Below are positions 17,197 to 24,755 of a stretch of DNA of 27,249 bases, piece after piece. The DNA lies in contig JALOPK010000051.1 in NCBI GenBank assembly GCA_025453925.1, positions 1 to 27,249 on the forward strand, given 5' to 3'. The translations under genes and the position numbers were made by a program. This DNA comes from Candidatus Eiseniibacteriota bacterium (GTDB lineage Bacteria; JAFGKV01). The notes below the pieces were generated by a model, which saw nothing but the letters and a program-made list of their open reading frames with translations, was not told where the DNA came from and made no database searches. Numbering within the stretch: position 1 is the stretch's first letter; every line of letters begins with the position of its first letter.

Positions 17197-18249
17197 TCAG
17201 CCCGCAACGTGGAGCCCATCCCCCTCGACGACATCGCCTATCATCCAGCATGTCTCTCCGGTCCGTTCGAAGGCTTCCACGACGGCACTGGCCCGGGATG
17301 AGGGCACCGCTGCGAGAAGCCCTCCCGATGTCTCGGGAGAGAACAGGAGCGCGCGTCGCGTGCTCGGGATGTCATCCGTGAAGGAGACCCGCGATCCGTA
17401 GTAGTCTTCGTTTCGGCAGGCGCCACCCGGGAAGTAGTCCTCGTCGGCGTAGCGGAGCGCGCCGTCGAGCAGCGGCACCCGATCCAGATGCACCCGCAGT
17501 GCCACACCGCTCTTGTGCGCGATCTCCAGGGCGTGCCCCGCGAATCCGAAACCGGTGACATCGGTGCAGGCACGGCACCCGCCGGTCTGGAGCGCCCGCG
17601 CCGCCCCGCGGTTGAGCCGCAGCATTGAGGTCACTGCGCCGGCCATGTGGCCCTCGTCGGCGGCCTCGTTCTTGAATGCGGTGGTGATGACCCCGACGCC
17701 CAGCGGTTTGGTGAGGATGAGCACGTCGCCGGGCCGGGCGCCGGTCTTGGTGAACACGCGTTCGGGATGGACGATGCCTACGACAGAGAGCCCGTACTTG
17801 GGCTCGTCGTCATCAATGGTGTGGCCCCCGGCGATAGCCGCTCCCGCCTCCGCCACCTTGTCGGCCCCGCCAACCAGAATCGCGATGACGACCTCGGGCG
17901 GAAAACCTGCGGGAAAGGCACAGATGTTCAGGGCCAGCACGGCCTCTCCGCCCATGGCAAAGATGTCGCTTAGTGCGTTCGCCGCAGCGATCGCGCCGAA
18001 CTGATAGGGATCATCCACGATGGGGGTGAAGAAGTCGACCGTGTGAATGGTGGCGATCTCGTCGCTGACGCGGAAAACCGCGGCGTCGTCGCCGGCGCCG
18101 AGGCCGACGGTGATCCGTGGATGATCCTCGGGTCGAAACAGGCGCTCCAGCGGGCGCAGGACCTGCGCCAGGGCCTCAGGCCCCCGTTTCGCGGCTCACC
18201 CCGCTGCCGTGGTCAGTTTCGTCAAGCGTATGGTCGTGCTGTCGGCCAT
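17197..18249 (-). CDS. selD: Selenophosphate synthase SelD containing selenocysteine (in-frame UGA)
   Basis: SelD makes selenophosphate from selenide and ATP, the selenium donor for Sec-tRNA. Read from ATG 18249 (GAGGA upstream), the protein is 350 residues with one in-frame TGA at codon 18 (18198-18196). The sequence reads LTKLTTAAG-U-AAKRGPEALAQVL, so U18 sits at the family's catalytic Cys/Sec position and K21 is the conserved active-site Lys. Then come GLGAGDDAAVF (ATP/metal binding), ATIHTVDFFTPIVDDPYQFG, FAMGG, GGHTIDDDEPKYG and TDVTGFGFAGHALE, all standard SelD blocks. Without recoding, the call would start at about 18018 as a 273-residue fragment with no active site. A SECIS-like hairpin follows the UGA. 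Its presence implies SelA, SelB and tRNA-Sec elsewhere in the genome. Confidence 0.95.
18153..18169 (-). promoter_or_regulatory. Candidate bacterial SECIS stem-loop in selD
   Basis: On the transcript GGCGCAG-GUC-CUGCGCC forms a perfect 7-bp stem with a GUC loop that begins 34 nt after the UGA. Bacterial SECIS elements are hairpins directly downstream of UGA, typically with a G early in the apical loop. The E. coli fdhF core has a similar GCAGGUC apex. A nearer hairpin, GGGCC-UGA-GGCCC (18171-18183), begins 13 nt from the UGA and is an alternative or lower element. SelB binding would stall and recode here. The structure is deduced by eye. Confidence 0.65.
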
Positions 18250-20575: not shown

Positions 20576-22696
20576 TCACGCATGGGGGCCAGCCCGCAAC
20601 GCTTCGATCAGGGCCCGCGGGTCACTGGTGGGGTTCAGGCACGTCTCACCCCGGCACACGTAGGCTGTTGCCCGACCATCCGCCGGGGCGCTTCCGATGC
20701 CGGGCAGGGGGCTCGCCCGGTGGAAACCCTCCCCGGCAAGGGTCACGACAGTGGCCGGGAGGAAGAGCCCCCTCACGGCGCCCACCAAAGCGTTGGTGTC
20801 GTCTGCGCCGGGTGTTCCGACGATGACGATCTCCGTCGCGGGACCCAGGAGGTGATCCAGTCCCATGAGAAGGAGAGTATGGGCGCTGGGAGCAGCGCCC
20901 ACCCGGGCGGCGACCGCGGAGGCGAGGGTTCGCGCATGCGCCTCCCATCGGCCATCACCGGTCATCCGGCCGAGACGGACCAGGTTGCCCAGCGCGACGG
21001 AATTGGCCGACGGGATCGCGCCGTCGTACACGTCCTTGGTTCGCATGATGATGGTTTCGGCGTCGTCGGACGTGAAGAAGAACCCGCCGCGCGGATCTCC
21101 GAAGCGGTCCACGAGCCGTTCGGTCAACTCCAGAGCGGCGGTCAGGAATGCCGTATCGAATGTTGCCTCGTAGAGCTCCAGGAGACCCCAGCCCAGAAAG
21201 GCGTAGTCGTCCGCGAAACCGTGGATGGCGACGTCTCCGTCGCGCCATCGGTGCAGCAGGCGGCCGTCGGCGGCGCGCATGGAGGTCAGGATGAACTCGG
21301 CGGCCCGCCGGGCGGCGTCGGCATAGAGTGGTTCGCCCAAGGCGGCGGCGGCCTTGGCCAGCGCCGCGATCATCAGACCGTTCCAGTCGGCAAGGATCTT
21401 GTCATCCCGTTGGGGGCGCACCCTGATGGTCCGCGCGGTGAGAAGTGCGGCACGGGCGGCCTCCAGCCGGCTGGCCGCTTCCCCCTCGGAGATCCCGCTG
21501 GCCACGCCGACCTCCGCCAGGGGCCGGGCACGATGCAGGATGTTCCGGCGCTCGGCCGTGCCGCCGGCCTCCGCGCTGAAGTTGCCCTCGGGGCGCACCT
21601 CGAATGCCTGGAGCACGAAAGGCACGTCATCGTGCGGCACCACCGCTCTGATCTCTTCCTCGGTCCACAGGTAGAAGGCACCCTCCTCGCCCTCGCTGTC
21701 GGCATCCTCGGCGGACGCGAACGCTCCTTCGGGCAGCAGCAGGTCCCGCAGCACGTAGGCGATGATCTCCCGGGCCGTATCGGAAAACAGGGAGTTGCCC
21801 GTGGCCTGAAATGCCTCGGTGTAGGCCATGATGAGCAGCGCCTGGTCGTAGAGCATCTTCTCGAAATGGGGCACGAGCCAGCGCGCATCGGTGGAATAGC
21901 GATGGAACCCGAATCCGACGTGATCGTACATTCCGCCCCGCCTCATGGCAGTGAGGGTCTGTTCCACCATCGTAAGCGCCCGCGGATTGCCCGATCGTCT
22001 CCAGTATCGTAACAAGAACATCAGGGTGTGGGGCGTGGGGAACTTGGGGGCGTTGCCGAATCCCCCATGCCGTTCGTCGAATCGCCGTGAAAGCTCCCAG
22101 AATGCCTCCTCGATGACCGCCCTTTCCAGCGGAGGACCGCCCGATCGCGGCGTCCGCGCGAGGGTTTTGGCCATCTGTTCACCCACGTCATGGAGCGCCG
22201 CCCGATCGGTATCCCAGACTCCCCTGATCCGGGGAACCAGCTCGACCAGGCCGGCCCGGCCGTACCGCGCCCGCGGGGGCAGGTAGGTCGTCGCATAGAA
22301 GGGCACCTTGTCCGCCGTCATGAAGATCGACAGCGGCCATCCGCCGCCGCGGGTCATGGCCTGGCACGCCGCCATGTAGATCGAATCGATGTCGGGCCGT
22401 TCCTCACGATCAACCTTGATGCACACGAAGGCGTCATTGAGCAGCGCGGCCACCTCTTCGTCCTCGAAGGATTCGTGGGCCATGACGTGGCACCAGTGAC
22501 AGGTGGAGTAGCCGATGGAGAGGAAGATCGGTTTGTCGTCGGCCCGGGCTCGCGCAAACGCCTCCTCCCCCCAGGGATACCAGTCAACGGGGTTGGTCGC
22601 GTGCTGCAGCAGATACGGGCTTCTCTCGCCGGAGAGCCGGTTGACCGGCAGTTCCGGCGTTGCATGGTCCGAAGGGGGGCGGGGCGGAGGGCTCAC
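20576..22696 (-). CDS. YyaL/DUF255-family protein: thioredoxin-like domain plus alpha/alpha-barrel
   Basis: This 706-residue cytoplasmic protein belongs to the conserved family containing YyaL and human SPATA20. [25 protein letters not shown] is split over 19-43 and is followed by [20 protein letters not shown], where C66 and C69 form a CxxC motif. [13 protein letters not shown] completes the thioredoxin-like part (to about 165). The rest is an (alpha/alpha)6-type barrel: [76 protein letters not shown]. The molecular function is unproven. GTG 22696 has AAAGG upstream; TTG 22729 is an alternative without one. It lies 185 bp after the candidate selenoprotein gene on the same strand, and a redox link is tempting but unproven. 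Confidence 0.9.
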
Positions 22697-22881
22697 GGAG
22701 GTACCTTTCGAGTGTCGTGTCTCAGGCAAACTGCCGGGAAGGAGAGCAAGAAAGGTTCCGAGCGGGTTTCAGGGGGGAGTTCCGGGGCGACCCCGGCCGG
22801 CACGGTATCGAACCGGTCGCGCCGCACCGCCGCCGGGAATGTCACGGCGATCGAATGCCTCGGCATTCGCGGTGCGGGGCA

Positions 22882-23766
22882 CTAGAGATCGAAGTCATCC
22901 TCCCCGGCACGGTTGGACCGCGCGAGCTCTGCGTCCGCGCCGTCCACCGCCATCACCATGAAGGTCCAGTTCACGCCCGGGTCGCCGGCGCCGGTGGAGG
23001 TCGCCCAGGTCGTAGCCGTGCCCGACAGCACATCAAGACGATGCTCGTACGGGGCGACCACCCCCGGAGCGAAGAAGGCGGTGCCGGGCGCGCCGTACAC
23101 CCAGAATGCCGCCGTTCCGTCGCATGGCGCCCAGTCGAGCCTGATGTCGCCGCCGTCTATCGAAGCAAGGAGCGAGAATGCCCCGGAGAAGTGGAGACGC
23201 AGGAGATTCAGGTAGGGCCGAAGCGCACCGGTGGTTGCCGATGGCGCGCTGCCGTCCAGCACCCGGTTGCCCCCCTCGGGATACCATCCCCAGTTGTAGA
23301 CCGAATTCCCGTCATCCCCGTCCCATCGGAACTCGACGATCAGATTCTGAAGGCCATCGTACGCGAAGGGTGTGTCGAAGACGAGCCCCTCCCACTCGTT
23401 GTTCGTCCAGCCGATGTTCAGCGTGGGGACGGCGAACACGGTCTGAGGCGTGTTTCCGCCATAGTTGTCGGCATAGGTGGCGGTGAGTTGGCTCACGGGA
23501 GTGTGGCAGAGGAGGACCTGGGCATCGTTGAACGTGCCATGATTGTACTGCGCGCTACCGCAGAGAAGCTGCACTTCGCGAAGCGAAGCGGGCCCCGCCA
23601 TCTCGTCGGACAGTACCAGGACCTGGTACCGGGCTCCATTCCCTCAGTCGCCGCAGAACGGTCGGTTCAGCAGGGCTCCAGGTGTCGCGCCGATCTGAAC
23701 GTAATCGGCACAGAGGGGGAGCGCAGCCAGGGCAAGCGGCACAAGCGCGCGGGATGCAGGGTGCAT
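22882..23766 (-). CDS. Secreted beta-rich protein with in-frame UGA; candidate novel selenoprotein
   Basis: The reading frame starts at ATG 23766 with AGGAGG 5 nt upstream. It gives a signal peptide (1-20, ALVPLALAALPLCA) and then DYVQIGATPGALLNRPFCGD, meets TGA at codon 41 (23646-23644) and continues open for 253 codons to a TAG. The sequence after the UGA (GNGARYQVLVLSDEM, QVLLCHTPVSQLTATY, NYGGNTPQTVFAVP, WEGLVFDTPFAYDGLQNLIVEFRW) belongs to a family of small secreted proteins in which an N-terminal block like PF..GNG.RYQVL is normally continuous, so both parts are one gene. If read as Sec, the protein has 294 residues and a C38-G-D-U41 motif. A 7-bp stem with a GUC loop follows. Alternatives are a nonsense mutation or a base error. 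Confidence 0.75.
23613..23629 (-). promoter_or_regulatory. Candidate bacterial SECIS stem-loop in the secreted-protein gene
   Basis: On the transcript GUACCAG-GUC-CUGGUAC is a perfect 7-bp stem with a GUC loop. A G-U and a C-G pair extend it to 9 bp (23611-23631). The loop begins 22 nt after the UGA, within the 16-37 nt range usual for bacterial SECIS. The apex CAG-GUC-CUG is identical to that in selD. Because CAG GTC CTG also encodes the family motif QVL, chance contributes; the matching flanks (GTAC/GTAC) are not required by that motif. Confidence 0.5.
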
Positions 23767-23812
23767 CGAGGCCTCCTGACGTGATACGCGGGTCAAATGT
23801 GGGCATGTCGGC

Positions 23813-23853: not shown

Positions 23854-24444
23854 ATGAACTTGGGCTTGACCGCCGGGTATGGCAATGGTGGATTCCATGG
23901 AGATCCGTGCGCAACGTCAGTCAACCCCAGCGAGGTGGCGGAAGTGGAACGCATCGCCCTCGGCAAACGCCCGGCAACGATAGGAGCCCTGGCAAACACC
24001 CATGGGGCGCTCCCCGCTGCCGTGCTGGATGCCTTGTGGGGCTGCGATCTTGTGGTCCATGCCGGCGACATCGGCGAGAACGCGACGCTGGCGGCGCTGG
24101 CCGCCGAGGGGCCCCTGGTCGCGGTGCGCGGCAACAGCGACCGACGCCCGCCTTTCAGCGAACTCCCGGACGCCGTCGAGATAACGGTGGGCGCGACCCG
24201 CATCCTCGCCGTGCACAATCATGCGGCCCTGGCGTGGTCGCCGGCTGAGAGAGGGTTCCAGGTGGTCATCTCAGGATTGTGGCATCAACCATCGGTCACT
24301 ACTCGGGAGGGTGTGATGGTCGTGAGCCCCGGAAGCGCCGCGCCGGGATGGCCGGGCATGCCGGTCAGCATCGCACGCGTCCGGGTCTCGGATTCGGGGG
24401 TGGAGCCGACCATCGTGAGGATCGAGCCTGCCCCAACCCCATAG
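23854..24444 (+). CDS. Degenerate YfcE/MJ0936-like metallophosphoesterase
   Basis: This 196-residue protein has the calcineurin-like phosphoesterase fold but altered metal ligands. IGALANTHGAL (43-53) replaces the usual ISDTHG, so the first Asp is N48 while H50 remains. HAGDIG (D72), VRGNSD (N94) and VHNH (H121) are kept. GLWHQP (141-146) replaces GHTHKP, so one His is lost. VMVVSPGSAAPG matches the end of the family. Two of about seven ligands are therefore changed, and activity may be reduced, changed or absent. ATG 23854 has GGGGAGGA upstream but adds about 35 residues compared with relatives; GTG 23943, with GAGGT upstream, gives the usual length. It is followed 29 bp later by the PqqD-like gene. 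Confidence 0.82.
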   Translation: MNLGLTAGYGNGGFHGDPCATSVNPSEVAEVERIALGKRPATIGALANTHGALPAAVLDALWGCDLVVHAGDIGENATLAALAAEGPLVAVRGNSDRRPPFSELPDAVEITVGATRILAVHNHAALAWSPAERGFQVVISGLWHQPSVTTREGVMVVSPGSAAPGWPGMPVSIARVRVSDSGVEPTIVRIEPAPTP

Positions 24445-24473
24445 GAAACCGACGTGAGGAGAGGAGCGTAGGA

Positions 24474-24755
24474 GTGGAGCACTATCTGGAGGCCAGCCCC
24501 GCGGTAGTGTTGCGGGAGGAGTTCGACGACTGGGCCGTCCTGTTCGATCCCGAGACCGGTGCCGGATTCAGCCTGAATCCCGTTGGAGTCTTCGTCTGGC
24601 GGCACCTCGACGGGCGCCACTCCGTAGATGACATCATGGACGCCATGCGCCGGGAGTTCGCGGAAGTGCCGGAAGACGCCCGCGCGCACATGGAAGAACT
24701 CATCCAGTCGCTGGTCGACAAGGGTCTTGTCGGACGGGTCATGCGGCAGGGTTAG
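24474..24755 (+). CDS. PqqD-like peptide-binding (RRE) protein
   Basis: This 93-residue protein has the fold of PqqD, which in several ribosomal peptide pathways binds a precursor's leader and presents it to a modifying enzyme. Family features are ASPAVVLREEFDDWAVLFDPETG (8-30), then FSLNPVGVFVWRHLDGRHSVDDIMDAM (about 32-58), and a C-terminal helix EELIQSLVDKGLVGR. GTG 24474 is preceded by GAGGAG 7-8 nt away; the longer frame to 24279 is overlapped by the upstream gene. It probably shares a transcript with the phosphoesterase. No radical-SAM enzyme or precursor peptide is visible nearby, so its client is unknown. Its stop codon abuts the stop of the convergent methyltransferase with no bases between. 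Confidence 0.85.
   Translation: MEHYLEASPAVVLREEFDDWAVLFDPETGAGFSLNPVGVFVWRHLDGRHSVDDIMDAMRREFAEVPEDARAHMEELIQSLVDKGLVGRVMRQG

Follow-up and report, generated by a model that had tools for sequence, protein, structure and literature searches.

The locus raises the question of whether an in-frame UGA ends a short exported peptide or encodes selenocysteine (Sec) within a longer exported protein. The window, meaning the whole stretch of 27,249 nucleotides that was analysed, carries the gene on its minus strand at 22882-23766. Read through the UGA, the gene specifies 294 residues with Sec at position 41, and its homologues are continuous across this codon. It begins with an ATG at 23766-23764, 5 nt downstream of a Shine-Dalgarno motif, AGGAGG, recognised in the sequence (23772-23777, minus strand), and ends with a TAG at 22884-22882. 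Forty codons, whose signal-peptide-like start is inferred from sequence, precede the TGA (23644-23646, minus strand), and 253 open codons follow it. The signal-peptide-like N terminus (residues 1-20, MHPASRALVPLALAALPLCA, 23707-23766, minus strand) contains no lipobox; its assignment rests on the sequence and on the relatives, nearly all of which have a hydrophobic start at the same place. The UGA is found in the motif PFCGDU, where Cys38 (23653-23655, minus strand), conserved beside the UGA in the family, is the partner of Sec41. A sequence-only reading had claimed that a ribosome-binding site and signal peptide are joined to the 253-codon frame by this single UGA, and had interpreted the product as an exported selenoprotein with a C-G-D-U motif. 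The first claim held, with an N terminus that is signal-peptide-like, and the second was supported by comparative evidence. We consider it very likely that codon 41 encodes Sec; the evidence is comparative, and there are no protein-level or selenium-incorporation data.

The genome of the window, which is 82% complete, was tested for Sec machinery, and tRNA-Sec (78.8 bits), SelB (333.9 bits) and a Sec-containing SelD were all present. SelD (selenophosphate synthetase), a trans-acting component, is encoded in the window itself (17197-18246, minus strand), in agreement with the sequence-only reading. Its AIRS and AIRS_C domains were confirmed, and its own in-frame TGA falls in LTTAAGUAAK, the UxxK site. 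tRNA-Sec was also detected in 37 of the 42 Fermentibacterota genomes, a phylum in which the family is common, as shown below.

Other genes of the window were noted as well. The next gene 3' of the selenoprotein gene, likewise on the minus strand, encodes a DUF255/Thioredox_DsbH protein (20576-22729); a conserved association with it was not seen in the WOR-3 or unclassified-bacterium loci inspected. A plus-strand frame at 1194-1550 and its upstream frame at 658-1200 resemble a MazF-type toxin and a ribbon-helix-helix antitoxin-like partner. The plus-strand frame at 24279-24755 has a PqqD-like (RiPP recognition element) sequence at its end and adjoins a phosphoesterase gene.

Initial contig scans of genomes and viruses with the window protein alone gave nothing useful. 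A three-row profile, A1, found relatives in four other genomes, with one TGA apiece, and every copy that was translated had a C-x-x-U motif, P-[FYW]-C-x-x-U. A mutated Trp codon was suspected at first because two distant modules have an aromatic residue near the UGA column; this idea was dropped once closer relatives with UGA and CxxC appeared. Codon frequencies were taken from 172 distinct stand-alone relatives with a complete N terminus, drawn from 50 genomes and fetched without selection on TGA. A DNA-pattern scan was also run, and since its pattern demanded a TGA, its loci, L224 onward, were left out of the frequencies given for the unselected relatives. Many of its further matches were chance matches in unrelated genomes.

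At the motif, UGA was present in 155/172 of the unselected relatives, CxxC in 13/172 and neither in 4/172. All 13 CxxC members encode Cys at the UGA position with TGC or TGT. A Cys was located at most three residues from the UGA in 150 of the 155 UGA members (at -3 in 109, at -2 or -1 in 41 more), and the other five had none within that distance. In variants such as GCU, SCU and CHU, the Cys stays beside the Sec. In an 83-row tree, the Cys rows were nested among the Sec rows, with at least three changes between Sec and Cys. The sequence-only reading had named a non-Cys sense codon in homologues as a refutation. Such codons were limited to more distant paralogues and to modules within large surface proteins, which lack the Cys as well; sampling that stopped there would have misled. 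In the distant Coatesbacteria paralogues, Cys and Sec are both missing and mostly W, Y or other non-Cys residues stand instead; aromatic residues at the column are confined to these more distant paralogues and modules. The Sec/Cys geometries observed in the family (L127-L139, L163, L176, L135) are CxxU, CxU (CHU), CU (GCU, SCU), UC and a Cys-less GIGU, and they offer a natural series for the study of redox tuning.

One alternative is that the TGA arose through an error in sequencing or assembly, or through a nonsense mutation of a Trp codon, and that the gene is a pseudogene. In its favour are the aromatic residue that the most distant relatives show near the UGA column, the origin of the window in a draft metagenome assembly, and the lack of the family in the two nearest genomes. 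Against it, the same TGA recurs in 155 relatives fetched without selection and in records assembled as a single contig or to chromosome level (L243, L307), a hairpin after the UGA is conserved, CxxC paralogues exist, and the part downstream is under purifying selection. In 61 close pairs, dN/dS was ~0.16 before the UGA and ~0.18 after it, which shows that purifying selection acts on both sides. An error or pseudogene is thus very unlikely here and is refuted for the family.

A second alternative is that the UGA is decoded as Trp, or is subject to general read-through, instead of specifying Sec. The non-Sec Coatesbacteria paralogues with W or Y in the motif speak for it. However, downstream of the UGA the UGA members use TGG for Trp 783 times and UGA once, and therefore UGA is not a general Trp codon in these genes. 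In addition, the Cys next to the UGA has no counterpart in the aromatic-type paralogues, Cys is the residue that replaces the UGA, the hairpin is a specific feature of UGA members, and the Sec machinery is present. We regard Trp decoding or read-through as very unlikely.

A third alternative is that translation stops at the UGA, giving a short exported peptide, and that the frame downstream is an independent gene; an ATG at 23601 could be cited for it. Against this, the CxxC paralogues are single uninterrupted frames, neither UAA nor UAG was found at the UGA position among the relatives, and the predicted domain fold spans the parts on both sides of the UGA (AlphaFold2 model). This explanation is all but excluded, and decoding as Sec remains the preferred reading.

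The hairpin in the window was examined against the published model of the bacterial selenocysteine insertion element (bSECIS), in which the UGA-to-loop spacing is 16-37 nt (PMC13188914). The criteria applied were a loop 16-37 nt after the UGA, a G in loop positions 1-2, a stem of 4-16 bp and an MFE <= -7.5. The bSECIS-type hairpin (23611-23631, minus strand) is formed by pairing of 23631-23623 with 23619-23611 (9 bp) around a GUC loop at 23622-23620, and meets the criteria with a spacing of 21 nt and -14.8 kcal/mol. Its stem starts 12 nt after the UGA and its loop occupies nt 22-24. The sequence-only reading had described a 7-9 bp stem with a GUC loop, which held at 9 bp, placed 22 nt after the UGA, which held in part: 22 nt is the distance to the loop and not to the stem. 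The window hairpin alone is no better than chance (z -0.9; synonymous-shuffle p 0.23), and its significance comes from conservation across the family.

Among the unselected UGA members, the 48 nt after the UGA folded at -15.5 kcal/mol vs -11.3 in synonymous shuffles. The published loop-spacing and loop-G rules (PMC13188914) were satisfied by 88% of UGA members vs 48% expected from the shuffles. For CxxC members the corresponding values were 23% vs 20%, and their folding was worse than expected. Control windows 120 nt further on in the UGA members gave no hairpin signal. Conservation of the hairpin in relatives, which the sequence-only reading had made a test of its claim, therefore held: it is kept in UGA members and absent from CxxC members. 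RNAalifold over all hairpins found no common structure, presumably because the stems use two registers, and the registers were counted separately after this result. In the commoner register, the wobble position of a Tyr codon (nt 18) tracks nt 25 (C-G 54, T-A 29, T-G 1, C-A 0). The GGTACCAGGTNCTGGTACT hairpin is nearly invariant in the clade of the window protein (WOR-3, Fermentibacterota and unclassified bacteria), with a compensatory C-G in one locus, L307. Since the members are related to each other, the hairpin and codon counts are not independent events.

The scale of the family was underestimated by the sequence-only reading, as it is a multi-copy family throughout two phyla. With a nine-row profile, A2, it was detected in 41 of 42 Fermentibacterota genomes, which have as many as 9 copies, and likewise in 11 of the 14 genomes from Coatesbacteria. 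One Coatesbacteria genus has 22-28 copies, of which 8-13 per genome have the TGA, and some are in tandem arrays. Such arrays (G431:C82:12009-18697, G430:C56, G429:C1:2062293-2068084) mix selenoprotein paralogues with paralogues lacking both Cys and Sec. The scan that required TGA gave as carriers Candidatus Fermentibacterota (Hyd24-12, Aegiribacteria, Sabulitectum), Coatesbacteria, WOR-3 and unclassified bacteria. Nearly all of the family genomes are metagenome assemblies. The window protein groups with WOR-3 members in an 11-row clade with support of 99; its closest kin are in WOR-3 (52% identity to L281) and have PFCGGU and the same GGTACCAGGTNCTGGTACT hairpin. In searches with the window protein alone, its N-terminal domain was found nowhere else in the three genomes of the window's phylum, and the family is missing from the two relatives in the window's own taxonomic family.

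The possibility of a misbinned contig can be addressed with the C-terminal domain (residues 198-293, 22888-23175, minus strand). This domain occurs ~50 times in the window's own genome, mostly at protein C termini, and being native to that genome it argues against misbinning. The copies inspected (22888-23175 minus; L002-L020) are mostly the ends of longer proteins. No Pfam model exists for the domain. It is absent from the WOR-3 and Fermentibacterota relatives, whose C termini differ, and the C termini of relatives in the window's clade are sorting-domain-like. It could be a lineage-specific surface-sorting or anchoring domain.

The exported domain (residues 21-195, 23182-23706, minus strand), which includes the CxxU loop, was delimited with profiles A2 and A3, AlphaFold2 and CBM-like folds. 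The AlphaFold2 model built with profile A3 covers residues 1-177 of the mature protein with a pLDDT of ~97 and is nearly all beta by DSSP. Its best structural matches are jelly rolls resembling carbohydrate-binding modules (CBMs), with Z of 10-11.7 and rmsd of ~3.2 A. The beta-sandwich criterion for a carbohydrate-binding module was met by the predicted model, and there are no carbohydrate-binding data. The criterion for a thioredoxin alpha/beta fold was not met, as strands make up almost all of the confidently modelled residues 1-177. The CxxU corresponds to residues 18-21 of the mature protein and is predicted to lie in a loop ahead of the strand at 24-31.

Gene neighbourhoods in Fermentibacterota provided a possible link to electron transfer. 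Among the 125 members for which 150 nt or more of downstream sequence was available, 29 had a membrane 4Fe-4S protein (PF12801, NapH/NosR type) encoded within the next 300 nt. This neighbour, with Cys-rich repeats, was found immediately 3' of one selenoprotein copy in over 20 Fermentibacterota genomes. The repeats in the Fer4_5 neighbours (L279:1473-2867, L261:4793-6463, L074, L075, L093 and others) are N-terminal and of the form CPLGYTPxxAC...CDNPG. In several Fermentibacterota loci, a DsbD_2 protein is encoded a few kb from the selenoprotein. These neighbours suggest, by inference, an electron supply to the exported CxxU centre. No NapH homologue was found at E 1e-5 in the window's genome, which is incomplete as noted above.

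In the mechanism that we propose on comparative evidence, SelB, tRNA-Sec and the hairpin directly after the UGA would recode codon 41 as Sec. The signal peptide, inferred from sequence, would carry the protein out of the cytoplasm, where the mature protein is predicted to be a CBM-like beta-sandwich with the C-x-x-U pair on a loop ahead of the main strand. Beyond the cytoplasmic membrane, the pair would act as a redox-active thiol/selenol (selenenylsulfide) centre. Many Fermentibacterota genomes have one copy that adjoins the NapH/NosR-type 4Fe-4S membrane protein, which may be the electron source. That the protein is an extracytoplasmic CxxU redox protein is likely; this remains inferred, from the CxxU, its replacement by CxxC and the joint loss of both residues.

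A less likely possibility is that the protein is a selenoprotein whose CxxU binds metals or metalloids (e.g. soft metals), or stores selenium at the surface, without redox chemistry. The many copies per genome, the extracytoplasmic location and the lectin-like scaffold would fit, and several catalogued selenoproteins are linked to mercury or other metals (PMC13188914 Table 1). Against this, one CxxU pair for which CxxC can substitute is the classic layout of a redox site, and the NapH-type and DsbD_2 proteins encoded nearby in Fermentibacterota are consistent with electron transfer. Extending the redox interpretation, a bolder reading is that the whole candidate phyla Fermentibacterota and Coatesbacteria, along with some WOR-3 and related bacteria, possess a redox system outside the cytoplasm that consists of many paralogous, lectin-like CxxU selenoproteins and is fed in Fermentibacterota by a NapH-type membrane Fe-S protein. 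We judge this a shade more likely to be wrong than right. If true, these lineages would have, beyond the cell membrane, a selenium-dependent system dedicated to electron transfer or thiol chemistry.

The gene is one of a family of exported selenoproteins that appears not to have been described before, the selenoprotein identity being very likely in the absence of protein-level or selenium-incorporation data. Nine members had no match in Pfam and, apart from a stray hit to alpha-amylase (E 0.015), none in NCBIfam; a PDB sequence search found no relative. The sequence-only reading knew of no selenoproteins in this secreted family, and none of the 119 prokaryotic selenoprotein families and subfamilies in a 2026 catalogue corresponds to it (PMC13188914). 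We found no description of the family in these phyla in the open-access literature searched; reference 66 of PMC13188914 reports unvalidated selenoprotein candidates from groundwater MAGs. The lack of a family model is possibly because annotation that reads UGA as a stop truncates or splits the genes. The family spreads through whole uncultured phyla, with amplification to 8-13 copies with UGA in each genome of one Coatesbacteria genus, and selenium would matter for the surface chemistry of the lineages that carry it. The presence of Sec, CxxC and non-redox paralogues in one family permits direct tests of what Sec contributes.

Compared with known systems, the TonB-dependent receptor of the FCYXU motif type (NF049945) is similar in being an envelope selenoprotein with a CxxU-type motif; it differs in being a named outer-membrane receptor, and members of the new family have no NCBIfam match to NF049945. 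The beta-sandwich modules without Sec that occur in large surface proteins (L022, L023 and others) are the same domain by profile but have aromatics in place of C and U and are embedded in long proteins. The fold of residues 1-177 is shared with N-terminal domains of acetyl-xylan and PVA esterases, phage tail-tip domains and the lectin-like domain of Cwp84. These CBM- or lectin-like jelly rolls have only 4-12% identity to the new family and no CxxU, and sugar binding by the family has not been shown. The catalogued CxxU selenoproteins (SelW-like, AhpD-like, GrdA, Prx-SUH and others; PMC13188914) have in common with the family a Sec-UGA, a downstream bSECIS hairpin, a CxxU pair and CxxC replacements. 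In contrast to them, the new family has a signal peptide, as many as 13 paralogues with UGA in a genome and a predicted all-beta CBM-like fold that is neither thioredoxin-like nor any other catalogued fold. The family would thus add to the known selenoproteins one built on a CBM-like beta-sandwich, a scaffold not among the catalogued ones, and located outside the cytoplasm.
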